Below, piece by piece: positions 8,348 to 51,877 of a stretch of 64,000 bases of DNA. The DNA is taken from the NCBI RefSeq assembly GCF_011044495.1, contig NZ_CP049143.1, positions 310,001 through 374,000 of the forward strand. The letters run 5' to 3'. Position 1 is the stretch's first letter. Each line of letters begins with the position of its first letter. The position numbers were made by a program, and so were the translations under genes. The stretch is from Roseimicrobium sp. ORNL1. GTDB taxonomy: Bacteria > Verrucomicrobiota > Verrucomicrobiia > Verrucomicrobiales > Verrucomicrobiaceae. Below the pieces are notes generated by a model. That model worked only from the letters and a program-made list of their open reading frames with translations. It searched no databases and had not been told where the DNA came from.

Positions 8348-11300
8348 ATGGAAGGCTCGCTCGATATCCGACCGCGTGGGAGTGCTCGCAAGCCTGAGGC
8401 ATCCCCGGCGGGCGGCTTGCCGTTTGAGATGCTCATCCAGAATTCCCCGTTGGGCATGTTTCTGGTCGATGCGGATTTTAAGATTCAGCAGATCAATCCC
8501 GCGGCGTTGCCCGCCTTCGGTTCCATTCCCCACCTGATTGGCCGCGACTTGGTGGAGGTCACGTACCTCATGTGGCCCCAGGAATACGCAGCGGAAATCG
8601 TGGACCGGTTCCGCCGTACGCTGGAAACTGGGGAGCCGTATACCGCGCCCCGCATCGCTGAAGAGCGGCGTGATCGCGCAGTCACGGAGTTCTACGAGTG
8701 GAGCATTCATCGCGTGCCGCTTCTGGATGGACAGTCGGGAGTGGTCTGCTACTTCCGGGACATCTCCGCCAGCGTCACCGCGGAGCAGCGATTGAGGGAT
8801 ACCCAGGCGGACAATGAACGTCAGCGCCGCCTGTATGAGACCATTCTCTCAAACACCCCGGACCTCACCTACGTCTTCGACCTCAATCACCGCTTCACCT
8901 ATGCGAATGCCGTGCTTCTGCGCATGTGGGGCAAGACCTGGGACGAGGCGATCGGAAAGACTTGTCTGGAGCTGGGATACGAGCCCTGGCACGCGGAGAT
9001 GCATGACCGCGAGATTGAGCAGGTGATTGCCACGAAGGCTCCCATTCGTGGTGAAGTGCCCTTTGCCGGCACCTTTGGCCGCCGCATTTACGACTACATC
9101 TTCGTGCCCGTGTTCGATGCAGACGGGAATGTGGAGGCCATCGCAGGCACCACACGCGATGTCACCGAGCGCAAGGCTACCGAACTCCGCCACAGCTTCC
9201 TGGTAAGTCTTGACGACGCCTTGCGCCCCCTCATTGACCCGCAGGAGATCACGCTCACCGCGGCACGCTTGCTCGGGGAACACTTTCACGTGGACCGCTG
9301 TGCCTACGCCGATATCGAGGCGGACGAGGATACCATGAACCTGACGGGCAACTACATGCGCCGCCCGGACATCAGGAGCATCGTGGGCAGGCTCAGGTTT
9401 GCGGACTTCGGTCAGGAGGTCCTGCAACTTATGCGCGAAGACAAAGCCTACGTCGTGCATGACGTGGACACGCATCAGCCGCCGGTGGAAAATCTGGCTG
9501 CCTACCGCGCCACGCAGATTCAGGCCGTCATCTGTGTGCCTCTGCACAAGGCGGGACGCTTCGTGGCCGCCATGGCCGTGCACATGGCGACGCCTCGAGT
9601 GTGGTCCCCGGATGAGGTGGAGTTGCTCAGAGCCGTGGCGGCCCGCTGCTGGGAGTCCATCGAGCGCGCGCGACTGGAGCGTGGACTTCGCGAGAGTGAG
9701 GGGCGGTTCCGCGCCTTCGTGACGGCCAGCTCGGATGTGGTCTATCGCATGAATGCCGATTGGACCGTGATGCAGCAGCTCGCCGGCCGGGACTTCATCG
9801 AGAATACCCCTGAGCCGGAGCACAACTGGATGGAAAAGTACATCCACCCGGCAGACCGGCGCATGGTCGAGGCGGCGGTTGAGACAGCCATCCGTACCAA
9901 GGGTGAGTTCCAATTGGAACACCGTGTCTTTCGTGTGGACGGCAGTCTGGGCTGGACGTTCTCGCGCGCCATTCCCCTGCTGGATTCGGAGGGACGGATC
10001 ACCGAGTGGTTCGGCACGGCCAGCGATGTCACGGAGAACAGACACGCGGAAGAAGCCCTGCGGGAAAGTGAAGCGCGCTATCGCTCCCTGTTCGAATCCA
10101 TCGACGAAGGATTCTGTGTGATCGAGATGCTGTATGATGATCAGCAGCGCCCTGTGGACTACCGCTTTATCGAAGTGAATCCCGCCTTCGAAAAGCAGGC
10201 AGGCATGCAAGATGTCGTCGGGAAGCGCATGCTGGAGTTTGTCTCGAGCATCGAAGAACACTGGCTGGAGAACTACGACCGGGTGGTCAAGACAGGCCAG
10301 TCCAATCGCTTTGCGGCGGAATACAAGGGACTCGACCGGTGGTTCGACGTGTATGCCTTCCGCATCGGCGACACCGGGGATACTCGCCTGGCGGTTCTGT
10401 TCAACGACATCACCGAACGCAAGATGGCGGAAGACGTCCTGCGCGCCAGTGAGGAGCGCGCCCGTGCGGCCTCCGCGGCGAAGGACGCCTTCCTCGCCCA
10501 GCTGTCGCATGAGCTCCGCACGCCATTGACTCCGGTGCTGATGACCGCCGCCACGTTGCGCGACGATCCCAGCATCAATGACCACGGTCGTGAGGCCTTC
10601 GCCATGATTGAGCGCTTCATCAATCTCGAGGCCCGTTTGATTGATGACTTGCTGGACATCACCCGAGTAACCCAGGGCAAGCTGGCACTCCGCTTTGAAG
10701 TCTGCGACATTCATCACATCCTCACCCAGGCCATCGAAATCATCCGCGATGGCGCGCGGGAAAAAGGCATCACGCTTCAAGCCGACCTCAAGGCCCGGCG
10801 CACCGCTTTCCTGGGAGATGCCGCCAGACTCCAGCAGGTCTTCTGGAACATCCTGCAGAATGCGGTGAAGTACTCCTCCGGCGGCACCGTTGTTCACATC
10901 ACGACGCGGGACACGTCTGCATCCCATGCCGATGCGGCCCCGCGAGGGATAGTCATCGAAGTCAGCGACACCGGCATGGGATTCGATCCGGCGGAGGGTG
11001 AGAAGCTCTTCCAGCCGTTCCATCAGGCGGACGCCGCGAAGGGGGCAGGCCTCGGCCTGGGTCTCGCCATCGCCAGGGCCATTGTGGAGCAGCACTCCGG
11101 CAGCATTGTGGGAACGAGTGAAGGTGAGGGATGCGGGGCGAAGTTTGTTGTCGAGTTGCCCACCATCGCTCCGCCCACTGGCAAACCCCGCTCAGAACCA
11201 AAGGACCAGATCATTCACCGCTCGCTGCCGACTCGTTCCTTGCGCCTGCTGCTGGTGGAGGATCACGAGGCAACCCTGCAGGTGCTCTCGCGTTTCCTGA

Positions 11301-31488: not shown

Positions 31489-32652
31489 ATGACCATTGAC
31501 GACATCATCTCCGACGAATCCCTGCGCACTTCCGAATTCCCCGTGGCGCGCGACACCATCTTCATGGCGCACGGGGGCGTGTGCATCCTGCCGCAGCGCT
31601 CGGTGAAGGCCATGCAGGATTATCTTGAGGTCTGTGCCGTGCGCGGGCAGGAGAATCTCGATATCTGGAGGCACCTCAATGAGACGCGCGTGGTGGCGGC
31701 GAAGCTCATCGGCGCGCAGGCCAGTGAGATTGCTCTGCTGGGGCCGACGTCCCTCGGACTCAGCCTCGTGGCCAATGGGTTGCCGTGGGAGGCCGGTGAC
31801 GAGATCGTGTGTTATCACGATGATTATCCCGCGAATGTGTACCCCTGGATGGATCTGCAACGTCGTGGCGTCGTGCTGAAGTTCATCGAGCCGGAAGTGC
31901 CCGGGCATATCACCCCGGAAGTGGTGGAGCGAGCGTTGACACCGAAGACCAAGATGGTGGCGCTGGCCTCGTGTCACTTTTTCACCGGGTATCGCATCGA
32001 TGTGGATGCCATCGGCAAGATGGTGCGCAGCCGCGGCATCTACTTCTGCCTGGATGCCATCCAGACCGTGGGCGCCTTTCCCACCAGTGTGGAGCACGTG
32101 GACTTCCTCAGCGCGGATGCGCACAAGTGGATGCTCGGCCCCATGGCGGCGGGCATCTTCTATGTGCGTGAGTCGCTGCATGACGTGCTGCGACCCTCGC
32201 TCATCGGCGCGTGGAATGTGAAGTCACCGAACTTCATCACACAGGATCAGGTGGAATTTGAGAAAGGTGGTCGGCGCTATGAACCCGGTGTGCCGAATGC
32301 GATTGGCATCTACGGCATGCGCGGAGCCCTGGACCTGCTGGTGGAACTGGGCATCGAAAATGTCGCGGCGCGCCTGCTGAAGCTGAAGGCCCATCTCGTA
32401 TCGAAGCTGAAAGCGCTCGGTTTCCAGGTGCTGCCGCCCACGGGAGGAGAACATGCCAGCAGCATTACCACCGCGACACGTGACGGTGGCGCCTCGCTGG
32501 AGCAGGTCTTCGACCACCTCGCAAAGCACCACGTGACTATCTCCCTACGGCACAATCGGGCCTGCAGAGCTCACCTGCGCTTCAGCCCGCACTTCTACAA
32601 TACCGAGGCAGAAGTGGACCGCGTGTGTGCCCTGATAGCCGAGGTGAAATAA
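31489..32652 (+). CDS. PLP-dependent aminotransferase class V (cysteine desulfurase-like fold)
   Basis: This 387-aa enzyme has the fold-type I layout: substrate/cofactor region FMAHGGVCILPQRSV near the N-terminus, ALLGPTSLGLSLVANGLPW for phosphate binding, FCLDAIQTVGAFP with the cofactor-contacting Asp, and the Schiff-base Lys213 in SADAHKWMLGP. Class V members include cysteine desulfurases, isopenicillin-N epimerase-like proteins and kynureninases. There is no obvious active-site Cys loop for a desulfurase, so the substrate is left open. It lies 54 bp upstream of the ADP-ribose operon but on the other side of its operators, so probably a separate unit. Confidence 0.85.
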   Translation: MTIDDIISDESLRTSEFPVARDTIFMAHGGVCILPQRSVKAMQDYLEVCAVRGQENLDIWRHLNETRVVAAKLIGAQASEIALLGPTSLGLSLVANGLPWEAGDEIVCYHDDYPANVYPWMDLQRRGVVLKFIEPEVPGHITPEVVERALTPKTKMVALASCHFFTGYRIDVDAIGKMVRSRGIYFCLDAIQTVGAFPTSVEHVDFLSADAHKWMLGPMAAGIFYVRESLHDVLRPSLIGAWNVKSPNFITQDQVEFEKGGRRYEPGVPNAIGIYGMRGALDLLVELGIENVAARLLKLKAHLVSKLKALGFQVLPPTGGEHASSITTATRDGGASLEQVFDHLAKHHVTISLRHNRACRAHLRFSPHFYNTEAEVDRVCALIAEVK

Positions 32653-32667
32653 CAGTCCTCAATATTA

Positions 32668-32705
32668 GTGTTGATCTGACACGAAGCATGGTGTTAAAGT
32701 GACAC
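32668..32705. promoter_or_regulatory. Tandem NrtR-type operators
   Basis: Two 15-bp imperfect palindromes, GTGTTGATCTGACAC (32668-32682) and GTGTTAAAGTGACAC (32691-32705), start 23 bp apart, about two helical turns. Both fit GTGTT-N5-GACAC. The first is extended to TTAGTGTT...GACACGAA, resembling published NrtR sites of TAGTGT...ACACTA type. The second ends one base before the ATG of the Nudix regulator gene, implying autoregulation of the operon. Confidence 0.65.
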
Positions 32706-32706
32706 C

Positions 32707-33402
32707 ATGTCCTTCGCCTATAAATACGCGCGCCCTGCCCTCACGGTGGACTGCGTGATCTTCGGGTTCGCATCCGAGGAGCATGAGCTGCGCGTGCTGC
32801 TCATCCAGCGCGGGTTGCCACCTTTCGAAGGGCGGTGGGCGCTGCCGGGTGGCTTTGTGAAGGTGGGCGAGAGCACGGATGTGGCCGCGCGTCGCGAACT
32901 GGAGGAGGAGACCGGACTGAAACAGGTGTACCTGGAGCAGTTCAAGACCTTCAGCGATCCGAAGCGCGACCCGCGTGAGCATGTGGTGAGCGTGGCGTAC
33001 TACGCCCTGGTGCCCTTCCTGAGCCACCCTCCGAAGGCGGATACGGATGCGAAGGATGCCGCGTGGTTCTCCGTGGAAGATGTGCCTTCCCTGGCCTTCG
33101 ACCACAAGCTCATCCTCGAAACGGCCCTGCACCGTCTCCGCCTGAAGATGCAGCATGAACCGGTGGGCTTCGAACTGCTGCCACCGCAATTCACCCTCAC
33201 CCAACTGCAACAGGTCTATGAGGCCGTCCTTGGCCAGACCCTCGATAAACGCAACTTCCGGAAAAAGATCCTGAGCATGAACCTGCTCATCGACACCGGT
33301 GAAGTGCAGCAGGATGTCGCGCATCGCGCCGCGGCCCTGTGGAAGTTCGATGCGCGACGGTATGAAAAACTCAAGAAGGGCGGCTTCCATTTCGCCCTGT
33401 AG
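32707..33402 (+). CDS. Nudix-domain transcriptional regulator, NrtR family
   Basis: This 231-aa protein has an N-terminal Nudix domain (residues about 10-145) and a C-terminal winged-helix domain (about 155-231; [26 protein letters not shown]). The Nudix box [23 protein letters not shown] fits GX5EX7REUXEEXGU completely, so it may hydrolyse an ADP-ribose-like nucleotide as well as bind it. Known NrtR proteins repress NAD genes and are released from DNA by ADP-ribose. Here it heads an operon of ADP-ribose-processing genes and is preceded by two palindromic sites, so it is likely the local sensor. Confidence 0.85.
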
Positions 33403-33414
33403 AAACAGGCTTGC

Positions 33415-33879
33415 ATGAGCGGGAACGTGATCCAGTTTTACAGCACGAAGGGCGAGTATGGTCCCTTCTCCAACTTCTCCGCGCATCGTCTTTTCTTGAA
33501 GGGGAAGACGTGGCGCACCTCGGAGCACTATTTCCAGGCCCAGAAGTTTGCCGGAACAGAGCACGAGGAGGAATTGCGTATGGTGGAGTCGCCCATGGTA
33601 GTGGCCCGCATGGGACGTTCCCGGAAACGGCCGCTCCGCAAGGACTGGGATGCCGTGAAGGACGACATCATGCGCGAGGCGGTGATGACCAAGTTCACCC
33701 AGAACAAGGAACTCAAAGCCCTGCTGCTCAGTACGTGTGATGCAGCGCTCGTGGAACACACCGCGAACGACTCCTGCTGGGCGGATGGTGGCGATGGCAC
33801 CGGAAAGAACATGCTCGGCATCATCCTCATGGAGGTGCGTGAGAAGTTGAAGGAAGAACAAGAATCGGGGAGTGCCTGA
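33415..33879 (+). CDS. NADAR domain protein (YbiA/RibX-like)
   Basis: This 154-aa single-domain protein begins IQFYSTKGEYGPFSNFS and continues with WRTSEHYFQAQKF, the N-glycosidase core of the NADAR (YbiA/DUF1768) family, and ends with WADGGDGTGKNMLGIILM. Family members hydrolyse N-glycosidic bonds in riboflavin precursors, and some remove ADP-ribose from guanine in DNA as antitoxins of DarT-type toxins. It lies 12 bp after the NrtR-like gene, and its stop overlaps the next start (ATGA), indicating translational coupling with the first ADP-ribosylglycohydrolase. Confidence 0.88.
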   Translation: MSGNVIQFYSTKGEYGPFSNFSAHRLFLKGKTWRTSEHYFQAQKFAGTEHEEELRMVESPMVVARMGRSRKRPLRKDWDAVKDDIMREAVMTKFTQNKELKALLLSTCDAALVEHTANDSCWADGGDGTGKNMLGIILMEVREKLKEEQESGSA

Positions 33880-34769
33880 TGAATAGTCACAACGAGAAGC
33901 TCCAGCGCGCATGCCTTGCATTAGAAGGGCTTTCCGTGGGAGATGGATTTGGCGAGCAGTGCTTCACCTCTGATGAGGTGATGTCTTTGCGCCTGGAGAC
34001 GCGTCAGATTCCGCCGCCGCCGTGGTTTTTCACGGATGACACGATCATGTCCATCTCCATCGTGGAGGTACTGCAGCAATACGGCATCATTCAACAGGAT
34101 GCGCTCGCCGCGGCCTTCGCGCACCGCTATGCCGCGGATCCGTTTCGCGGTTATGGCGGCACTGCGCATCGCATTCTCCGCGCCATTGGCGAAGGTGTTC
34201 CCTGGGAGCAGGCGGCAGGTGAAGCCTTCGATGGCATGGGCTCCATGGGCAATGGCGGCGCCATGCGCGCCGCACCGGTGGGAGCCTATTTCGCAAAGGA
34301 AGGCGTGGCAGCGGTGGTCGAACAGGCGAAACGCTCGGCCGCGGTAACGCATGCTCATGAAGAAGGGCAGGCGGGTGCGGTGGCCGTGGCACTTGCGGCG
34401 ATGTATGCGGTCCAGCATGGGGCCCGGGCGGAATCTCGCGGACTGCTGGAGTTCGTTCTCGAACACCTCACACCCGGAGATACGCACACAGCCTTGCGAC
34501 GTGCACTGAACATCCCATTCAGTCGCTCGCCTGCGGTGATTGCCCAGATGCTCGGCAGTGGTGAGAAGGTCATCTCACAGGATACTGTTCCCTTCTCCCT
34601 TTGGTGTGCCGCGAGGCATCTCGACAGTTTCCCATCGGCACTATGGTCCACCGTCAGTGGACTGGGTGATCGAGACACAACCTGCGCCATCGTTGCCCTT
34701 GCGGTCGGGCGTGAAGGCATCCCGGCAGACTGGGTCGCAAGTCGAGAGCCGCTGCCACTACTCAACTAA
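33879..34769 (+). CDS. ADP-ribosylglycohydrolase (DraG/ARH family), first copy
   Basis: This 296-aa all-helical hydrolase has a start ATG overlapping the NADAR stop. It shows GLSVGDGFGEQCF near the N-terminus, the dimetal motif FTDDTIMSI (Thr52-Asp53-Asp54), GAMRAAPVGAYF, and a C-terminal LGDRDTTCAIVALAVG in which Asp264 and Asp266 match the GDTDT metal ligands, with Arg replacing the first Thr. The family cleaves ADP-ribose from arginine, serine or other acceptors using magnesium. It is clearly diverged from the second copy at 35991, suggesting different substrates. Confidence 0.87.
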   Translation: MNSHNEKLQRACLALEGLSVGDGFGEQCFTSDEVMSLRLETRQIPPPPWFFTDDTIMSISIVEVLQQYGIIQQDALAAAFAHRYAADPFRGYGGTAHRILRAIGEGVPWEQAAGEAFDGMGSMGNGGAMRAAPVGAYFAKEGVAAVVEQAKRSAAVTHAHEEGQAGAVAVALAAMYAVQHGARAESRGLLEFVLEHLTPGDTHTALRRALNIPFSRSPAVIAQMLGSGEKVISQDTVPFSLWCAARHLDSFPSALWSTVSGLGDRDTTCAIVALAVGREGIPADWVASREPLPLLN

Positions 34770-34787
34770 TTCTCAAACTTCATTGTC

Positions 34788-35630
34788 ATGATTACCAAAC
34801 GGTCAGCGAGGGCTTCGCTGGCAGAAGAAACACTCCGCCTCATTGAACAAGGTGGATATACCAGTAGCAGCGGGAAGAGCGTGGACCTTGCCGTGTCCGT
34901 CAGCAGATCGGTGCGCGATACGGTGGGCATTGCCCCGGAGGAAACTCTGGAAGTCGCGCGAACGAGCGAAGTGAAAGGCGTCATCGAGGTGACTTCGGAG
35001 TCCACGCTGCAGGCGCTCATCCGCCTGCAGGGTGAGGACGCGCCTGGCCTGGCGTGCCTGAACTTCGCCAGCGCGAAGAATGCCGGTGGTGGCTTCCTGG
35101 GCGGGTCCCAGGCACAAGAAGAGTCGCTCGCGCGATCTTCCGCGCTGTATCCCAGCCTGACTTCGGTGCCGCAGTACTATGAGGCTAATCGTGCCTGCCG
35201 ATCGAGCCTCTACACGGACTGGATGATCTGGTCCCCTGAGGTGCCCTTCTTCCGTGATGATGAAGGCTCGCTCCTCGATGTGCCGGTGCTGGCTTCGGTC
35301 ATCACTGCTCCTGCACCGAACGCGGGCGCCGTAGCCAAGAACCGGCCGGATGAACTGCCGCTGGTGGAACCCACCCTGCAGCGGCGGGCGGAACGCGTGC
35401 TACAGCTCGCGGCCTCGCGTGGTGTGAAGACTTTTGTGCTCGGGGCGTGGGGCTGTGGCGTGTTCCGCAACGACCCGAGCATGGTGGCCAGCGTTTTTGC
35501 AGATCTCGTCCGCGAAGGTGCAGCCTTCGCAAATGTCTTCCCGCGCCTCGTGTTCGCCATCTATGACACCACCTCCACTGGTGAGGTGCTCACCGCCTTC
35601 AAGACAACCCTTTTGCAGACATCGTCATGA
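34788..35630 (+). CDS. Bacterial poly(ADP-ribose) glycohydrolase (TIGR02452/microbial PARG, macrodomain fold)
   Basis: This 280-aa protein has a catalytic loop GGGFLGGSQAQEES with the Glu pair at residues 111-112, preceded by LACLNFASAKNAGG, and a late LGAWGCGVFRNDP; all are hallmarks of the microbial PARG group related to the macrodomain. Such enzymes release ADP-ribose from poly- or mono-ADP-ribosylated targets by exo-cleavage. The N-terminal about 85 residues form the helical accessory segment usual in this group. It lies 18 bp after the first DraG-type gene, and its stop overlaps the next start (ATGA). Confidence 0.88.
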   Translation: MITKRSARASLAEETLRLIEQGGYTSSSGKSVDLAVSVSRSVRDTVGIAPEETLEVARTSEVKGVIEVTSESTLQALIRLQGEDAPGLACLNFASAKNAGGGFLGGSQAQEESLARSSALYPSLTSVPQYYEANRACRSSLYTDWMIWSPEVPFFRDDEGSLLDVPVLASVITAPAPNAGAVAKNRPDELPLVEPTLQRRAERVLQLAASRGVKTFVLGAWGCGVFRNDPSMVASVFADLVREGAAFANVFPRLVFAIYDTTSTGEVLTAFKTTLLQTSS

Positions 35631-35983
35631 CCTCTTCCACCATTACCCTCTACCGACCCGTCGGGCCGGAGGAGTTGAAGCTGATTGCTTACAGCGGTTG
35701 GCGGCGCTTTCCGCCACGGTTGCCAGATCAGCCCATCTTCTATCCCGTGTGCAACGAGGCCTATGCGCGGCAGATTGCGCGTGATTGGAATGTGCCCGCG
35801 AGCGGTGCTGGGCACGTGCTGCGCTTTGCTGTGGATGAAGGCTACGGCTCACGCTTCCCCAGGCAGATTGTCGGTGGCGCAGAGCATGAGGAACTCTGGG
35901 TGCCGGCGGAGGATCTGGAGGAGTTCAATGATCACATCATTGGCAAGATTGAGCTGATTGCGTCCTATGGCCGTGAGGGATGA
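35627..35983 (+). CDS. Small protein of the family labelled 'ADP-ribosylation/crystallin J1'; possible ADP-ribosyltransferase-like fold
   Basis: This 118-aa protein overlaps the PARG gene by 4 bp. From memory, similar short proteins beginning TLYRPVGPEELKLIAYSGWR and containing QPIFYPVCNEAYARQIARDW and EHEELWVPAEDLEEFNDHII carry this database label. The order LYR-, alternating helix/strand, then a late ELWVP strand followed by a helix recalls the split beta-sheet of ADP-ribosyltransferases, where the last motif bears the catalytic Glu. That fold assignment is inference; a nucleotide-binding or accessory role is equally possible. Its tight coupling with PARG and a second glycohydrolase supports a part in ADP-ribose chemistry. 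Confidence 0.6.
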   Translation: MTSSTITLYRPVGPEELKLIAYSGWRRFPPRLPDQPIFYPVCNEAYARQIARDWNVPASGAGHVLRFAVDEGYGSRFPRQIVGGAEHEELWVPAEDLEEFNDHIIGKIELIASYGREG

Positions 35984-35990
35984 CAGCAGC

Positions 35991-37025
35991 ATGGGTGACC
36001 GCATCACCGGCCTGATTCTCGGTGCTGCAGTGGGAGATGCACTGGGCCTGCCAGCCGAGGGCATGTCGGCGAATCGCATTGCGCGTCGCTGGCCAGGTGC
36101 CTTGCAACATCGCTTTCTCTTTGGTCGCGGCATGGTCAGTGATGACACGGAGCATGTCTTCTTCACCGCGCAGTCACTCCTGGAGGCTGGCAATGACGTT
36201 GCAGTCTTTCGCCGCGCCCTCGCGAGGCGACTGCGTTGGTGGCTTCTCGCGTTGCCTGCCGGCGTGGGCCTGGCCACGGCGCGATCCATCGTGAAGCTCT
36301 GGTTGGGATGGAATCCTGCGAAGAGTGGTGTGTGGTCTGCGGGAAACGGCCCAGCAATGCGAAGCGCTGTCATTGGAGCGCGCTTTGCGGAGGATGAAAC
36401 AAAGATCCGCGCGTTCGTGGAAGCATCCACGTGCATGACACATCGAGATCCCAAGGCCAACACAGGCGCGCTGGCAGTCGCATTGGGCGCCGCTGCGGTG
36501 ATTCGTGGTGCCGCCAGCGATGACGCTCTGATCCATACCTGGCAGACGCTTTCCTCTGATGAAGAATGGCAACGCGCCATGGCCTTGCTGCGCGCAGAGC
36601 TGGCACGTGGCTCTTCAGTGGTCGCTTTTTCAGAAGTGCTCAGCGGCAAACGCAAACGTGAGGTGAGTGGATACATCTACCGGACGGTGCCCGTGGCGCT
36701 CTACGCGTGGCTGCGGCATCGCGGTGATTTTCGTGCGACGCTTCAAGAAGTGATCGCATGTGGTGGTGATACAGACACCGTTGCTACGATCGCTGGAGCT
36801 CTTGCCGGATCGGAGTGTGGTGAGAAGGGCATTCCTGCGGAATGGATCTCGGGTATTTGCGAATGGCCACGAAGCACTCGTGTGCTGCGTGAAATAGCTT
36901 CACGTGCCGCGGATCAGAATTGCCGCACCCCAGTGAGCTATGTGGTGGCAGGCGTCATTCCGAGAAACGTTTTCTTCCTCGGTGTGGTGTTAACTCACGG
37001 CTTCCGCAGGTTGATTCCTGGATAA
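35991..37025 (+). CDS. ADP-ribosylglycohydrolase (DraG/ARH family), second copy
   Basis: This 344-aa protein starts at the ATG at 35991, 7 bp after the previous stop; a TTG 33 bp upstream is possible but overlaps that gene. Motifs: GAAVGDALGLPAEGM (10-25), the metal-binding VSDDTEHV (Asp51, Asp52), GNGPAMRSAVIGA, and ACGGDTDTVATIAGALAG, a fully canonical second metal site. The protein is longer than the first copy by a C-terminal segment. It is the last gene of the ADP-ribose operon, followed by a terminator at 37031. Confidence 0.88.
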   Translation: MGDRITGLILGAAVGDALGLPAEGMSANRIARRWPGALQHRFLFGRGMVSDDTEHVFFTAQSLLEAGNDVAVFRRALARRLRWWLLALPAGVGLATARSIVKLWLGWNPAKSGVWSAGNGPAMRSAVIGARFAEDETKIRAFVEASTCMTHRDPKANTGALAVALGAAAVIRGAASDDALIHTWQTLSSDEEWQRAMALLRAELARGSSVVAFSEVLSGKRKREVSGYIYRTVPVALYAWLRHRGDFRATLQEVIACGGDTDTVATIAGALAGSECGEKGIPAEWISGICEWPRSTRVLREIASRAADQNCRTPVSYVVAGVIPRNVFFLGVVLTHGFRRLIPG

Positions 37026-37030
37026 CAATA

Positions 37031-37053
37031 AAAGGCCTCCGAAGAGGCCTTTC
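37031..37053 (+). terminator. Terminator hairpin after the ADP-ribose operon
   Basis: AAAGGCCTC-cgaa-GAGGCCTTT lies 5 bp beyond the stop of the last operon gene. It is a perfect 9-bp stem whose A/T ends can act in either direction. Confidence 0.75.
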
Positions 37054-45178: not shown

Positions 45179-46657
45179 GTGCAGGATGCCTCTCTCAGCG
45201 AACGACTCGCGCGCACGGTGTCGGCGGACTTTTTCCGGCCGCTGACCCGTCCCTCAGCGCCGGTGTCGGTGGACTGTGCCCAGCGCTTGATCGAGGAGGC
45301 CGGATTGGCGGGCAGATTGCCTTTCAATGAGGCGCGACAGATCATCCGTGAAGTGCTGGTGAGCCATCCACAGGTCTCGCTTGCGGATGACGAGGGTGCC
45401 CTCCTCCGAGATGTGGGCCAGAGGGCCGGCATGTTCATGAACCGCCTGCTCGCGGCCGGCTGGCTGGAGGAGCAGACACTGGGCCTGCAGGATCGCCGCA
45501 TCATCGTGACGCCCGGCCTGCGCTTGCTCATGGGTATGCTGCGGGCGCTGGCGGAGGATGAAATCGCCGAGTTGCGTACCTTTGCGGATACCTTGCGTGG
45601 GGTTTGCGAAACACTCGAGCGACCCCAGGTGCTGGATGCGGATGCGCATACCGGCGACTCACTGCGCGCGACAATTAATGATCTCAGTCAACGGCTCGAC
45701 CTCGCGGTGAATCAGCTCTACTCGGTGGAGAAGCTGATTGCAGGATTCGAAGCCCAGCAACGCCAGTCGGATTCCCCCGCGCAAACGTTGAAGCTCTTCT
45801 ACCTCGACTTTGCCCAGGGGCAGCACATGGTTTGTTACGATGTGTTGAGCAAGGGTGGTTTGCTTTCACGATTGCGTTCTGCAAGAGCCCTCGTGGCGGC
45901 GCAGCAGGATGATCCTCTCGTGCGTGAGCGGCTTGCAGAGGGGATACGCGAGCATTTTGGATACGATGCGCCGGAGTCCGTGTTGCGTGCCCGGCAGGTA
46001 TTGGCCACACTGGAGCGCAGTCTTGGTGGTCTGGGCGACATCGCGCGCGCCATCGATGAGCGGATGGCGGCTTTCAATCGCCTGTCCCAGCAGCGCTACC
46101 GTTACCAGACCGAAGTACGCGGCAGGCGGCCGGAACTGGTGAAGGCTTATTGCGAAGCGATCAATGCTGCCCACAATGGCACGCATTTCCGCGACCTGTC
46201 GAACATGCCCGCGGACTTCAAGCCGCTGTGTCCGGAGGTGAAGCTCTTCTTCGGCACTGGCGCCTTGTGGAAAGGAAGAAACCGCCGTCCACCGGTGGAT
46301 CTCAAATTCAACGCTGGCCGCGCCACTCCCGAAGATGAAGCCTCCGCGCTGGAAGCCATGCGCCAGCGGCAACGTCTTGCTCTCACACCCATGCGAGCGG
46401 CGCGTCTGGTATCGAAGATGCTGCCGGGCAAGAAGGCTTCTGCCGGCACCGATGCCTTCCGCGTCAGCAGCACGGATGAACTGCTGGACCTGCTGGCGAC
46501 GGTGGCCTACGACCACGCGCAGGATGAGCAAGGGCGCATGGTGCGCTGGAAGATCGCGAGCGAGCGTCAGAAGTCCGGCATGCAACCCGAGAAGGTGGTG
46601 CGCGATGAACAACTCGAGTGGAAGGTGGACCGCTTTACCCTGACAAGAACTTCATGA
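45179..46657 (+). CDS. jetA: Wadjet defence protein JetA (kleisin-like, non-DUF3375 type)
   Basis: This 492-aa protein is taken from the GTG at 45179; the frame is closed by a stop at 45146-45148 and no ATG lies before the conserved region. The N-terminal DFFRPLTRPSAPVSVDCAQR matches the 'Wadjet JetA family' found in type II/III systems rather than the DUF3375 JetA of type I. The rest is helical with winged-helix-like ends, fitting a kleisin subunit that bridges the SMC heads. The ATGA overlap with jetB shows translational coupling. Wadjet complexes extrude DNA loops and cut small circular plasmids. Confidence 0.85.
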   Translation: MQDASLSERLARTVSADFFRPLTRPSAPVSVDCAQRLIEEAGLAGRLPFNEARQIIREVLVSHPQVSLADDEGALLRDVGQRAGMFMNRLLAAGWLEEQTLGLQDRRIIVTPGLRLLMGMLRALAEDEIAELRTFADTLRGVCETLERPQVLDADAHTGDSLRATINDLSQRLDLAVNQLYSVEKLIAGFEAQQRQSDSPAQTLKLFYLDFAQGQHMVCYDVLSKGGLLSRLRSARALVAAQQDDPLVRERLAEGIREHFGYDAPESVLRARQVLATLERSLGGLGDIARAIDERMAAFNRLSQQRYRYQTEVRGRRPELVKAYCEAINAAHNGTHFRDLSNMPADFKPLCPEVKLFFGTGALWKGRNRRPPVDLKFNAGRATPEDEASALEAMRQRQRLALTPMRAARLVSKMLPGKKASAGTDAFRVSSTDELLDLLATVAYDHAQDEQGRMVRWKIASERQKSGMQPEKVVRDEQLEWKVDRFTLTRTS

Positions 46658-47313
46658 CGATTGAGCGAACGGATCCCCTGTGGCCCAGCTTCTGGCACGA
46701 TGTGCCCGTGGATGATCGTGCACCCATGCGTGATATCCTTGCCGACCTGCTGAGTCACGGGGTGCTGCTGGGAGATACCGGCAGCGGACGCGAACTTCTC
46801 CTGGTGGCGCGTGAGCATCAGCATCGGCTTGCCGATTACCTTGCGCCGTTGGGATTGGAACTGGTGCTTGATGAAGAAGTGCCACTGCTGCAGGCACGGC
46901 CACGCATGGAGTCTTGCCAGCTTCTTGGTTCCTTCAGCAAATATGAAACCCTCATGCTGCTCACCCTCTGGCGTGTGTGGGATGAGGCGCAGACGGGTGG
47001 ACTCAGCTCCGCAGTCACGCTCACGCTGGATGAGTTGTACGAGAAGCTTCGTGTGTATTTTGAAGACATCGAACGTCCCGAGCGCACACAGCTGGAGGAT
47101 GCGCTGGGCAAATTGAAGCGGCACCGGCTTATCCGCACTCGTCGCCCGGATGATTCCGAGGCTCCTGGTGAAACCATCATCGAGGTCCTGCCTTCGCTCG
47201 CGCGTGTGATACCTTTTGATTCCATCGAACAGTGGGGTGAGCGCGCTCAACTGGTCTCGCCAACCGCGGCCACAAGTGAGGAAGCTTCGACTGGAGGTGC
47301 GTCCGCAGTATGA
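46654..47313 (+). CDS. jetB: Wadjet defence protein JetB (DUF4194-like, KITE subunit)
   Basis: This 219-aa protein starts at the ATG at 46654, which overlaps the jetA stop; an in-frame GTG at 46618 would overlap jetA by 40 bp and is less likely. Tandem winged-helix character is seen in SFSKYETLMLLTLWRVWDEA, TLDELYEKLRVYF and LEDALGKLKRHRLIRTRR, as expected of the DUF4194 subunit that binds the kleisin in MukE-like fashion. The C-terminal 35 residues are Ser/Ala-rich. It overlaps jetC by 4 bp (ATGA). Confidence 0.85.
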   Translation: MTIERTDPLWPSFWHDVPVDDRAPMRDILADLLSHGVLLGDTGSGRELLLVAREHQHRLADYLAPLGLELVLDEEVPLLQARPRMESCQLLGSFSKYETLMLLTLWRVWDEAQTGGLSSAVTLTLDELYEKLRVYFEDIERPERTQLEDALGKLKRHRLIRTRRPDDSEAPGETIIEVLPSLARVIPFDSIEQWGERAQLVSPTAATSEEASTGGASAV

Positions 47314-50300
47314 ATTCACCCCGTCGCATCACCCTGAGCCGCATCGTGGCGGTGAACTGGTATGGGTATCGTCAGTTCATTGATGTGAATGGCCTTTCGC
47401 TAATCACTGGAGCGAATGGTTCCGGCAAGAGCGCGCTGTTGGACCTCATCCAGTTCGTCATGCTTGGGGAACAGCTCAGCCGCTTCAACAAAGCGGCGGC
47501 CGGCGCGGGCAGCGGGCGTACGCTGCGTGGTTACTGTCTCTGTGATACCAATACCCTCAGCCGCGATGGCAACGAGCGTTTCCTGAGGTCGAGCGGCGTG
47601 ACGTTTGCGGGACTGGAGTTTGCGGCGCCCCCGAATGCCAAAGGCGAAATTCCACGGCAGACCTGGGGAGCGCGTATTGAGTATGATAGCCCCACGGCGA
47701 AAGGCAGTGTTCGCTGGTTCCGCGCGCCATGCCGATTGGAGAAGGCTGATTTCCTTCGCGTGGATTTGCATGGCGAGGAGGAGTTCCTGTCTGACGAAGA
47801 ATTCCGCGTGCATCTGAAGCGCGACCTGGAAGGGGATTGCTGGGAGCACCAGCGCACCTACTTGGAGGAGATGCGGCAGCGCACCGGCCTGCACTTTGAC
47901 CGGGAGCAGATGAACAAGACGCTGCCGAAGGCCATGGCATTCCAGCCGGAGAGCAACTTTGAGGCATTCATTCGCGACTACCTCTTGGAAGTTTCCCTCC
48001 CTGATGTGCGGGCTGTGAAGGCAAGCGTGGAAGCGCACAATCGCGCAAAGCTCCACCTGGAGAAGATGCATGATCAGCATCAGCGTCTGGGGCGCATCTG
48101 CCAGCTTCATGACGCAGCAGCATCACATCGCCGGGAGTCTTCCTTGTGGTATCACCTTGCGGATGCCCTGCAGCATGAAGAGGCGCTGGAGAAGCTGGAG
48201 GGTGCCCGCCAGACCTTGCGGAAGATCACGGAAGACAGCGCGCAGCAGGTGCGCGATCGCGAGGATGCCATCGCCGAGCGCAATGAACTGGAAGACCAGC
48301 TTGCGGAAGTGCGCCTCGTGGTGGGCAACGACTCTCAACTCGCCCGACTCAGTGAGAACCGTGAGAAGCTGCGCAAGCTGAAGGAGGAACTGACTGAGCT
48401 GCGAGAGGCACGTAAGACGGCCTCGCAGTTCCTGCAGACGCATGGCATGCACTGGAAGAACTGGCTGCGCCTTGCGGAGTCTCTGCATGTGGATGTCCCG
48501 CGCGAGGTGAATGAGCTGCTGGGCGTGATTCGTGGTAATGATGAATCAAAGGGGCTTGATGCCGTGGCACGTCTTGGCAGGCAGGGAGATGCGCTGCTGG
48601 AGACTGCACGGGAACGCCTTCGCGAATTGCGTGCCGAGGTCGAAAGGCTGGAGTCACGTGAGCGTGAACTGCAGCGCGATCTGGAACATTATCGCGAGGG
48701 CCGGTCAGCGCCTTCGCCACTGCTGGATGCCCTGCGTGCGCGTGGTCAGAAAGTGTCGGCCTTGGGGCGCGTGGTGGAGGTGAAAGCCGAGGCGGAGGCC
48801 TGGTGGCCACTGCTGGAGAGCCTGCTTGCGCAGGACAGGCAGGCCATCCTGCCGGAAGACTTCGCCGCCGCCTGGGAAGAAGCGCAACGCACGCCCAGCC
48901 CGGGCGAGCCGCTCATTCATCCGGAAGAGGTCCGCGCGAAGGCGGCCAAGAATGCCGTGCAGACAGGCAGTGTGCGCGAGTTTCTGGAGACGAAGCATGC
49001 GGGCGCTGCTGTTTATCTGGATGGCCTCCTGGGTGATCTCATGCCTGTGGATCACACGCATGGCCTCACCCAGCATACGCGGGCCTTGAGCCGCGATGGC
49101 TGGCTGAAGGATCCGCCGCGCCGTGTTCGCCTCGTTCCTGCGAAGGAACTCACCTTGGGTGAGGAAGGTCTGCGTCGCATGCGTGAGGTGCGCGAGACGG
49201 AACTGCGCACCGTGCGTGAGCAGCTCTCCGTGGCGCGCCGCCAGCATTCCGACTGGCAGGGCTGGGCCAATCAGGCGGAAACTCATGGTCTGATACACCC
49301 CACACCACCGGATGTGGGTTCCGCTCTGCGCCGCCTGCCTGAGGTGGAGAAGGAAAGTCATACGCTGGATGAGACCATCCGCCTGCTGGCCACACCAGAG
49401 CGCGAGGCGACGGTGGAGAAGCTGCGCAAACTTGAGTCTGCTTTCAAGGGGGCCTCCGAGCGGGCCATCCGTCTGGAAGAGCGTCTTGGGCATCTGGATT
49501 TGCAGCAACGGGAACTGCGGGAGCGCATTGCCACGCTGGAGGAGGAGGAGAATTCACTTCACCTCAGCAGGCATGCCAGCCGCGCCAAGCTTACGGGCGT
49601 GCTGGAGACAGACATCGCCTCTCGCCTCACCGCCGCCAAGTCCGAGAAGGGCTCCTGGACGAAGCGTCGCGAGACCGCCATGGTCGTGGCCAATCACGAG
49701 GCGAATCGCGCCGCGGAATCCACACGGCAGCGGGATGCCGAGCGTCAGCAGTTTGCCGTGGCGCATCCGGATATCGCGGAGGCGTTCGATGCGCAGGAAG
49801 AAGACAACGAGCGCTACGCCTCACGTCTACGCCAGCTTGCCGAGCAGGAGCTGGATCGTTACAAGGCAGAAGCCGCGCAGGCGCAGAAGGAGTGGGAGGA
49901 GCGTCTGCAGCATCAGGTGCTGGACGTGCTGAAGGAAAAGCTGGATGAGGCCGACCGCACCAAGCGCGAGCTGAACAAGGCGATGGCCCATGACATCGGC
50001 GGCATGCGCTACCAGATCACCAGCCAGAAGGATCGCACGCACACGGCCATCTGGGAACTCGTGGACGGTGGCATCCCGACGGGTGAGCAGCTCGCCCTCT
50101 TCAACCATTCCAAGCGGGAGGAACTGGAGAAGGCCAAGTTGGAGCTCATGGCTGCCATCGAAGCGGCGGATAATCCCGAGGACAAGCGTGGTCAGCGTGC
50201 CCTGGACTACCGCTATTACCATCACTGGGACATCGAAGCCCGGCCTACGGGCAAGGGCGATGGCGCGGCCATCTCGCTGAACAAGAGTGCGAAGAAGCAA

Positions 50301-50657
50301 AGCGGTGGTGAAAATCAGGCGCCCTTCTTCGTGGCCACCCTTGCGGCGTTCCATCGCGTGTATGACGTGAGCACGCCCAACGGCCCGCCGACCTTGGGCC
50401 TCGTGGTCATGGATGAAGCCTTCAGCAAGCTCTCTGGCGACCGCATCGATGACTGTCTGGAACTCGCCCAGAACTTCGGTCTGCAACTCGTCATGGCCTT
50501 CCCGGAAGACCGCCTTCCCACCATGATTGAGCATGCGGATACCGTCGTGCAGTGCCGCGTGGAGCGCACTTATGATGATGCCACCGGATCTGTAAGCGAC
50601 ATTCAGAACTGGGTGGTGCGTGTGGATCGTGATCGTCTGCGGGAGGCCTTTGCATGA
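47310..50657 (+). CDS. jetC: Wadjet defence protein JetC (SMC/MukB-like ATPase)
   Basis: This 1115-aa ATPase has Walker A ITGANGSGKSALLDL (residues about 32-46), long coiled-coil arms rich in Glu/Leu/Arg (about 250-480 and 620-900) separated by a hinge-like globular part (about 500-610), an ABC signature KQSGGENQAPF, and Walker B LGLVVMDEAFSKL near the C-terminus. These are the features of the JetC motor, which dimerises and extrudes DNA loops with JetA and JetB. All ATPase motifs are intact. Its stop overlaps the jetD start by 4 bp. Confidence 0.93.
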   Translation: MNSPRRITLSRIVAVNWYGYRQFIDVNGLSLITGANGSGKSALLDLIQFVMLGEQLSRFNKAAAGAGSGRTLRGYCLCDTNTLSRDGNERFLRSSGVTFAGLEFAAPPNAKGEIPRQTWGARIEYDSPTAKGSVRWFRAPCRLEKADFLRVDLHGEEEFLSDEEFRVHLKRDLEGDCWEHQRTYLEEMRQRTGLHFDREQMNKTLPKAMAFQPESNFEAFIRDYLLEVSLPDVRAVKASVEAHNRAKLHLEKMHDQHQRLGRICQLHDAAASHRRESSLWYHLADALQHEEALEKLEGARQTLRKITEDSAQQVRDREDAIAERNELEDQLAEVRLVVGNDSQLARLSENREKLRKLKEELTELREARKTASQFLQTHGMHWKNWLRLAESLHVDVPREVNELLGVIRGNDESKGLDAVARLGRQGDALLETARERLRELRAEVERLESRERELQRDLEHYREGRSAPSPLLDALRARGQKVSALGRVVEVKAEAEAWWPLLESLLAQDRQAILPEDFAAAWEEAQRTPSPGEPLIHPEEVRAKAAKNAVQTGSVREFLETKHAGAAVYLDGLLGDLMPVDHTHGLTQHTRALSRDGWLKDPPRRVRLVPAKELTLGEEGLRRMREVRETELRTVREQLSVARRQHSDWQGWANQAETHGLIHPTPPDVGSALRRLPEVEKESHTLDETIRLLATPEREATVEKLRKLESAFKGASERAIRLEERLGHLDLQQRELRERIATLEEEENSLHLSRHASRAKLTGVLETDIASRLTAAKSEKGSWTKRRETAMVVANHEANRAAESTRQRDAERQQFAVAHPDIAEAFDAQEEDNERYASRLRQLAEQELDRYKAEAAQAQKEWEERLQHQVLDVLKEKLDEADRTKRELNKAMAHDIGGMRYQITSQKDRTHTAIWELVDGGIPTGEQLALFNHSKREELEKAKLELMAAIEAADNPEDKRGQRALDYRYYHHWDIEARPTGKGDGAAISLNKSAKKQSGGENQAPFFVATLAAFHRVYDVSTPNGPPTLGLVVMDEAFSKLSGDRIDDCLELAQNFGLQLVMAFPEDRLPTMIEHADTVVQCRVERTYDDATGSVSDIQNWVVRVDRDRLREAFA

Positions 50658-51877
50658 AGCCCCCGGCCTGGCTGCGCGAACTGCATCGCCAGTGGCAGTC
50701 CGCCCGCGGTGCGCGGGCGCAGCAGGCCAGTCGGACATTTACGCGTGGTTGGGAAGACCTGCTGGACGCCGCAGGGATCATGTCCGCAGACGAGCGTCTC
50801 GTTGCGGAGCGGGAGGCAATCGCACTGGAGCGGGAAGGCAGGCTCAAGCTGGTGCGCCATCGTTATCGAAAGTATCGCGTCGAGAAGGTTGCGTTGCCAC
50901 TTGAGTCCGAGGCATGGCTTGTTGGTTTGTTTGGCGAGCAGACGGGAGGTGAGAAGCTGGAGCAGTGTGTCGCGATGCTCAAGCATTGGAACGTGCAGAC
51001 GCATCCGCGTTTTCCCGAGTCGTGGGGCGACCTGTGTCACAGGGTTTCGGAGGCGATGCACGCTGGCAAATCAGTGCGACCATTCTCGTGGCGTCATCCC
51101 AGACTGTTTGGCGAACTGCTGGGTTCGTTGTACGCACTGACTTCGAGGGAATGGCCTCCAGGCACCCATATGCGCGTTGCGAGTGAAGAGCTTGGTTGGG
51201 GATCGAAAGCCTTGGAAGAACATCGCGCAGCGTTGGAAGCAGGCCTTGGAGTGCTGTTCGGAGAGCCTTCGCCACTGGAATCCCTTGGTCTCGTCTGCAC
51301 GCGCAGCCATGCGCGAGTTCAGGGTCCACTCACCCTTCATTTCGAAGATGGCACTGCGCATACCATCTCCAATCTCCAAGGTGAGACGACCATCACGCAT
51401 GCGGATCTCCAGCGGGCGACCCATATCACCACCACCGCAGCGCGACTACTCAGCATCGAGAATAGCAAAAGCACCTTTGCAGACGCCTGCGCGGTGAACC
51501 GGAGTGGCGATACCCTGCTTCTCGCTACGTCCTATCCCAATGCCGCCACGCTCCGCCTGCTGGAGCTGCTGCCTGAGGAGCTTCCCCATGTTCACTTCGG
51601 CGATACCGACGTTTCCGGCTATGCCATCCTCCGTGCGCTTCGGCAGCAGAGCGCGCGTCCGGTGCAACCCTTCTTGATGGCGTGGGAAGATGATTTGGCC
51701 TCCAAGGCGCTCAGTGAGCATGATCTTCGTTTGTTGCCCATGTTGTTGGAGGGAGAGGTATTGGCGGATTGTCGCGAGCATCTTGAGCGCATGAAATCCG
51801 TCGGGCGCAAAGGCCGGTTTGAGCAGGAGCGCTATGGTATGCCGAGGCTGTTGGAATGGCCGTTTTGGAACCCTTGA
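50654..51877 (+). CDS. jetD: Wadjet defence protein JetD (TOPRIM-type nuclease)
   Basis: This 407-aa protein has an N-terminal DNA-binding-like DUF3322 region (about 1-190) and a C-terminal DUF2220/TOPRIM domain with ISIENSKSTFADAC-like Glu motif (LLSIENSKSTF) and the Asp pair at 317 and 319 in HFGDTDVSGYAIL. JetD is the subunit that cleaves the circular DNA once the JetABC motors stall. The metal-binding residues are all present. It is the last gene of the operon and converges with the small membrane protein genes downstream. Confidence 0.92.
   Translation: MKPPAWLRELHRQWQSARGARAQQASRTFTRGWEDLLDAAGIMSADERLVAEREAIALEREGRLKLVRHRYRKYRVEKVALPLESEAWLVGLFGEQTGGEKLEQCVAMLKHWNVQTHPRFPESWGDLCHRVSEAMHAGKSVRPFSWRHPRLFGELLGSLYALTSREWPPGTHMRVASEELGWGSKALEEHRAALEAGLGVLFGEPSPLESLGLVCTRSHARVQGPLTLHFEDGTAHTISNLQGETTITHADLQRATHITTTAARLLSIENSKSTFADACAVNRSGDTLLLATSYPNAATLRLLELLPEELPHVHFGDTDVSGYAILRALRQQSARPVQPFLMAWEDDLASKALSEHDLRLLPMLLEGEVLADCREHLERMKSVGRKGRFEQERYGMPRLLEWPFWNP

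Follow-up and report, generated by a model that had tools for sequence, protein, structure and literature searches.

Six co-oriented genes on the + strand (32707–37025) of a 64,000-nucleotide window of the Roseimicrobium sp. ORNL1 genome (positions 310001–374000 of its single 7.96 Mb contig; coordinates below are positions in this window unless another locus is named) probably constitute an autoregulated operon for ADP-ribose clean-up, a variant of an NrtR-controlled locus for NAD recycling and ADP-ribose removal that is common in the order. The operon encodes a predicted NrtR-family repressor, a NADAR protein, two ADP-ribosylglycohydrolases (ARH1 and ARH2), a microbial-type PARG and a 118-residue protein, here called G5, with a predicted ADP-ribosyltransferase (ART) fold. 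Its gene content, catalytic motifs, operators and conserved linkage are established at the level of sequence. The core idea is not new, since operons combining ARH with Nudix or WYL regulators have already been predicted to counter viral ADP-ribosylation (PMC9503650, section 3.8 and Figure 7). What the present locus adds is a modular setting of NAD recycling throughout the order, a repressor with a complete Nudix motif and an unannotated, predicted ART family linked with PARG.

Conservation and control of the NrtR locus

Of 190 genomes in the order, 61 have an NrtR orthologue; the neighbourhoods of 40 NrtR loci were set against 20 controls taken from those same genomes (counts out of 41 include the window). 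Named records among the loci with an NrtR operon belong mostly to Verrucomicrobiales and Verrucomicrobiaceae. The genes linked to nrtR, all on its strand, are ARH (36 loci), KptA (20), macrodomain (19), PncB (19), PncA (18), G5 (10), DUF4291 (9), NADAR (8) and PARG (4), with the PncB, PncA (isochorismatase family), NadE, KptA, macrodomain, DUF4291 and NadR-like adenylyltransferase neighbours identified by Pfam; none of these linked genes was present in the control loci (Fisher p = 3e-12 for ARH). A first-pass annotation of the window had proposed a single transcription unit, and the co-directional ARH in 36/40 NrtR loci versus 0/20 controls upholds this. Because of the gene content of the 40 co-directional orthologue loci, we see in the window operon one form of a modular NrtR locus predicted to join ADP-ribose removal, NAD salvage and RNA-end repair.

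The nearest copy, at the same-genus locus L175, has the order NrtR-NADAR-PARG-G5-ARH2 and lacks ARH1; the five genes that it shares with the window are under purifying selection, with ratios of nonsynonymous to synonymous substitution (dN/dS) of 0.07–0.11. Both same-family copies (L176 and L177) carry an additional KptA. All six families occur together in a Limisphaerales metagenome-assembled genome (L073), with KptA and an ARH fused to a cyclic-phosphate processing receiver (cREC), while L064 has the order NrtR-PARG-PncB-NadE-NADAR-G5-KptA-ARH-PncA. Across 289 genomes of the phylum PARG and NADAR co-occur above chance (5 versus 0.9 expected, p = 8e-4); the genome-level association of G5 with PARG or NADAR is weaker (3 versus 0.55 expected, p = 0.013).

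Several other features of these loci were recorded. The cREC-ARH fusions within NrtR operons lie at 10340–11677 of L073 (Pfam-confirmed) and 2786–4135 of L037. A PTP/DSP 'Swiss army knife' phosphatase (PF22784) is encoded between NrtR and ARH at 8830–9378 of L184, and 183-residue open reading frames of the same length and in the same place are found at other loci of that genus (L185, L187 and L190). DUF4291 recurs in NrtR/ARH/KptA operons (e.g. L013, 7565–8236; L022, 5932–6774), and a literature search on this family found no paper.

Conservation extends to the operators. The palindrome RGTGT-N7-ACACY, with at most one mismatch, is found upstream of 39/41 nrtR genes compared with 1.8% of control windows (p = 6e-59), which bears out the tandem operators of the first-pass annotation. 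Operator 1 of the window (32667–32683, + strand, AGTGTTGATCTGACACG) has one mismatch and matches at 9 of the 10 constrained positions; operator 2 (32690–32706, + strand, GGTGTTAAAGTGACACC) abuts the nrtR ATG. The two copies are 23 bp apart in the window, L175, L176, L177 and L181, and about 30 bp apart in L178, L180, L183, L191 and L193. The repressor appears purely local, because across the 7.96 Mb genome the exact GTGTYRNNNTGACAC pattern is confined to these two operators; one-mismatch matches are no commoner than those of a reversed-pattern control. Control of a distant NAD-salvage gene in this genome by NrtR was considered and rejected, there being no nicotinate phosphoribosyltransferase (NAPRTase) family and no second exact operator pattern elsewhere. 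Since operator 2 abuts the ATG, transcription may begin at or very near the nrtR start codon. A sigma-70 promoter scan found nothing above threshold; a weak -35/-10 pair within the operators (TTGATC, 18 bp, TAAAGT) would yield a leaderless mRNA, which we offer only as a suggestion.

The predicted sensor, erasers and ADP-ribosyltransferase

The NrtR-family repressor predicted at 32707–33402 (+ strand) matches PF21906 (NrtR_WHD, 6e-29) and PF00293 (NUDIX, 5e-23). At 166.8 bits it does not reach the 400-bit cut-off of NCBIfam NF050029, the ADP-ribose-responsive NtrR equivalog, and so belongs to the same superfamily rather than to that equivalog. In other NrtRs, ADP-ribose frees the protein from DNA (PMC4666351, PMC6800001), and in NAD-type NrtRs the Nudix signature is impaired and several members are enzymatically inactive (PMC4666351; MsNrtR in PMC6800001). 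The Nudix box of the window NrtR is intact; the complete motif is present in 36/41 NrtRs (the window and 35/40 relatives) and all catalytic glutamates in 41/41, and an impaired form is seen in NrtRs adjoining G5 in Hahella, Ideonella and Leptothrix. Because the motif is complete, unlike that of the known NAD-type proteins, NrtRs of the window clade may still hydrolyse ADP-ribose and thereby remove their own inducer.

Five of the six gene identities (NrtR, NADAR, ARH1, PARG and ARH2) are confirmed by Pfam or NCBIfam above cut-offs, in agreement with the family calls made initially. The NADAR/YbiA-type protein, a predicted ADP-ribosyl-guanine hydrolase (33415–33879, + strand; PF08719, 3e-38; TIGR02464, 147 bits with a cut-off of 73.7), retains the motifs SEHYFQ, NDSCW and NMLG and is the sole NADAR in the genome. 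ARH1 (33879–34769, + strand; PF03747, 3e-45), of the ARH/DraG fold, and ARH2 (35991–37025, + strand; PF03747, 5e-61) have intact pairs of metal motifs, TDDT with GDRDT and SDDT with GDTDT respectively. Neither ARH reaches the 337-bit cut-off of the DraG equivalog TIGR02662 (36 and 91 bits), and for ARH2 the ATG at 35991 is favoured as start over an upstream TTG at 35958. The microbial-type PARG (34788–35630, + strand; PF10021, PARG_cat_microb, 2e-48; TIGR02452, 290 bits, 1e-86, with a cut-off of 50) carries the signature GGG-X7-QEE at residue 100. The 'four different erasers' of the first-pass annotation are thus four proteins but only three families. Its description of the layout, co-oriented genes with 4-bp overlaps or 7–18 bp gaps, holds for the orientation and the gaps (spacings +12, -1, +18, -4 and +7 bp), but one of the two overlaps is of 1 bp.

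G5 (35627–35983, + strand) begins within the last 4 bp of the PARG gene. No family for this protein was found in Pfam, NCBIfam, PHROGs or PADLOC, and a sequence search of the PDB was also empty. An AlphaFold2 model built from 53 sequences (pLDDT 93.4, pTM 0.86) was compared with the PDB by Foldseek, where nearly all of the top 24 matches are ARTs, with probabilities up to 1.00; they include Tpt1/KptA, the RhsP2 toxin domain, PARP domains, TreTu, MbcT, ParT and diphtheria toxin. The best TM-score is to the RhsP2 toxin domain (0.63, at about 12% sequence identity). R10 on strand 1, Y39 on strand 2 and E89 on strand 5, at the usual positions of the ART triad, are invariant in 53/53 sequences, and the mean column identity is 63%. 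An ART fold is therefore well supported by the model, which upholds at fold level the original description of the protein as 'ART-like'.

Relatives of G5 occur at more than 570 bacterial loci (a lower bound), among them Bacteroidota, Actinomycetota, rhizobia and Planctomycetota, and in 10/289 genomes of the phylum. An alignment-based scan found it in 16 IMG/VR contigs, and 3 huge-phage records also contain it; a viral scan for close relatives that used G5 alone as query gave no matches. G5 directly follows PARG in two jumbo-phage loci (L101 and L105), and in a third (L102) one short gene stands between them. These three are IMG/VR contigs of 267–481 kb, and TROVE/Ro60-like genes, a nucleoside deoxyribosyltransferase-Nudix fusion and a nucleotidyltransferase lie near G5 in jumbo-phage loci. 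Elsewhere, L198 and L204 pair G5 with NrtR and contain neither PARG nor NADAR, and in many hosts, including Hymenobacter, rhizobia, Streptomyces and many actinobacteria, G5 is solitary. At rhizobial and Devosia loci (L048, L051, L065, L069, L075 and L078) the solitary gene is followed, about 2.8 kb downstream, by a cysteine-desulfurase-like gene in the vicinity of SUF-type genes, and on a Deinococcus taeanensis plasmid (L237) a NADAR gene stands divergently beside a G5 annotated as a hypothetical protein.

The proposed clean-up scheme and its alternatives

In the scheme that we favour, NrtR would occupy both operators and repress the unit until NAD+ cleavage or ADP-ribosylation of macromolecules supplied free ADP-ribose, which would bind the Nudix domain and release the repressor. 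Among characterised relatives, NADAR acts on guanine, with members that reverse guanine ADP-ribosylation (PMC11543638, PMC11833690), PARG acts on 2'-OH RNA marks and on RNA 5'-phosphate ends, and ARH- and macrodomain-type enzymes act on phosphate ends (PMC11833690). Because these chemistries are complementary, the operon looks like an inducible clean-up unit for several ADP-ribose linkages: NADAR would take ADP-ribose off guanine, PARG would clear the ribose 2'-OH, RNA phosphate ends or poly-ADP-ribose, and the two ARHs would handle other linkages (amino acids, phosphates). As its Nudix box is intact, NrtR would probably split ADP-ribose to AMP and ribose phosphate, giving a switch that resets itself. 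The weakest step concerns G5, which from its model is probably an NAD+-using ART and would most likely modify or repair RNA or protein with a mark that the neighbouring PARG can remove. The same cleavage of NAD+ sets nicotinamide free, which the NAD-salvage enzymes of relatives (nicotinamidase, nicotinate phosphoribosyltransferase and NAD synthetase) would recycle.

The operon resembles several known systems without coinciding with any. As in the ARG-centred Nudix/WYL systems of PMC9503650, a Nudix-HTH regulator heads ARH genes with variable NADAR- or Macro-type partners, and a PTP-type phosphatase is present in the relative L184. Those systems are defined by the lack of a coupled ART or sirtuin, whereas the window operon has a predicted ART together with a microbial PARG; it also has no phosphatase or chaperone (the R-P phosphatase is found in about 55% of the published systems), and its relatives carry NAD-salvage genes. 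The text of that paper mentions neither PARG nor Verrucomicrobia. The NrtR regulons of NAD metabolism in S. oneidensis, Mycobacterium and others, cited in PMC4666351 and PMC6800001, likewise have an autoregulator combining Nudix and winged-helix domains, palindromic operators and control of PncA, PncB and NadE, which in our case are found in the relatives; in contrast to those regulons, the window NrtR has an intact catalytic box, its operon holds no NAD biosynthesis gene, and its operator is RGTGT-N7-ACACY rather than the mycobacterial GTTTTCGA-N7-TCGAAAAC. The bacterial-type PARG recalls the damage-related Deinococcus operon DRB0100-0098 (PMC11833690), where the partners are an RNA/DNA ligase and a kinase-phosphatase and there is no NrtR, NADAR or ARH.

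A number of observations weigh against the clean-up scheme or its parts. The 41 NrtR loci were picked by similarity to the window NrtR, and the co-occurrence counts are uncorrected for relatedness. At the sequence level G5 matches no ART by HMMER, hhalign against KptA gives a probability of 0.5%, and its Foldseek E-values are modest (5e-3 to 1e-1). No NAPRTase family (PF04095, PF17767) was detected in the genome, which would thus lack that route of nicotinamide recycling, the function that most often accompanies the locus in relatives; because these families were not found, though quinolinate phosphoribosyltransferase (QRPTase) is present, only the ADP-ribose arm appears to be represented in this genome.

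The dedicated response to ADP-ribose proposed by the first-pass annotation is the natural reading and has been published for similar operons (PMC9503650), but its example of protection fares less well: because the same NrtR and operator usually head PncA, PncB, NadE, KptA and macrodomain genes, a part in NAD/ADP-ribose homeostasis is no less likely than a defence against toxins or phage, which as one use of the operon is possible but unsupported. A host immunity function, in which ADP-ribosylation of host molecules by a phage ART or a competitor's toxin would switch on an otherwise silent operon that repairs the damage, strikes us as possible though rather unlikely. It would agree with the prediction published for the combination of a regulator with ARH, Macro and NADAR (PMC9503650, section 3.8), with the shielding of cells by PARG from the RNA-modifying toxin RhsP2 (PMC11833690), with modular gene gain and loss among relatives, and with the L184 phosphatase beside NrtR-ARH, which matches the published R-P phosphatase partner. 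The window NADAR also resembles the anti-phage NADAR family, scoring below that family's cut-off, and a Wadjet system is encoded 8 kb further downstream. This is a four-gene type I system by PADLOC (JetA, JetB, JetC and JetD; 45179–51877; JetC E = 1e-131), and as a single case one such neighbour proves nothing for defence. An indirect test for defence found no enrichment around the operons: PADLOC families occur in about 5/119 proteins flanking the operons, mostly housekeeping look-alikes, with a similar or higher number in 119 control proteins. Immunity is also opposed by the purifying selection, in place of rapid change, within the genus, by the frequency of NAD-salvage companions, and by the predicted ART inside an operon whose published class is defined by the absence of one.

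Whether the unit could instead be a toxin-antitoxin pair turns on G5, which would be the ART toxin, with NADAR or PARG as antitoxin in the manner of DarT-NADAR or YarT-YbiA. The predicted fold, the closeness in TM-score to an RhsP2 domain whose 2'-OH RNA mark PARG erases (PMC11833690), the proximity of G5 to PARG here and in the jumbo phages, and the YarT-YbiA precedent (PMC11125620) speak for such a pair, and a NADAR and a small, here predicted, ART do share one operon as in DarT1-NADAR and YarT-YbiA (PMC11543638, PMC11125620). Unlike the toxins of those pairs, G5 matches no ART model, is often solitary and adjoins PARG rather than NADAR; unlike RhsP2, it is stand-alone and conserved, with no secretion or Rhs part. 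Its solitary occurrence in many hosts, lacking any eraser in Hymenobacter, in Rhizobium beside the cysteine-desulfurase/SUF-like genes and in many actinobacteria, speaks against an obligate pair, as do L198 and L204, and its high conservation is unlike that of fast-evolving toxins. We consider the toxin-antitoxin reading very improbable, and a dedicated toxin role for G5, often solitary and strongly conserved, was judged unlikely.

A locus centred on RNA ends, in which removal of marks from protein is incidental, seems to us unlikely. KptA is present in 20/40 relatives, including both same-family genomes, a cyclic-phosphate receiver is fused to ARH in L073 and L037, Tpt1/KptA is among the best Foldseek matches of G5, TROVE/Ro60 genes accompany G5 in jumbo phages, and RNA phosphate ends are substrates of bacterial PARG and ARH (PMC11833690); yet KptA is missing from both the window operon and the same-genus copy, and the loci showed neither an RNA ligase nor RtcB. 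We give little credence to a fuller version, in which the operon would be a complete circuit of reversible ADP-ribosylation, with G5 as endogenous writer on RNA (or protein), PARG, NADAR and the ARHs as linkage-specific erasers, and a catalytic, self-resetting NrtR that senses and destroys ADP-ribose, the G5-PARG part having been taken up by jumbo phages.

The clean-up operon brings together three subjects that are seldom treated jointly: the regulation of NAD metabolism by NrtR, ADP-ribosylation erasers of differing chemical specificity, and RNA-end repair (KptA). If this reading is true, bacterial RNA/DNA ADP-ribosylation gains a physiological, regulated setting beyond toxins. An NrtR that hydrolyses its own inducer is a testable prediction, and the unannotated predicted ART family, with more than 570 bacterial loci and its jumbo-phage members, is a concrete target.

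Flanking features

Directly upstream of the operators lies a gene for a class-V aminotransferase or cysteine-desulfurase-like protein (AT5, 31489–32652). It recurs at the same-genus locus L175, and was left out of the unit because it is absent from the other 39 NrtR loci. Downstream of ARH2, a hairpin at 37030–37053, assigned to neither strand (AAAAGGCCTC-CGAA-GAGGCCTTTC; -14 kcal/mol, z -1.75), is a probable (bidirectional) terminator. The first-pass annotation had placed the terminator of the operon here; the hairpin exists, but the strong T-run lies on the - strand only, and the + strand continues with TTTC.

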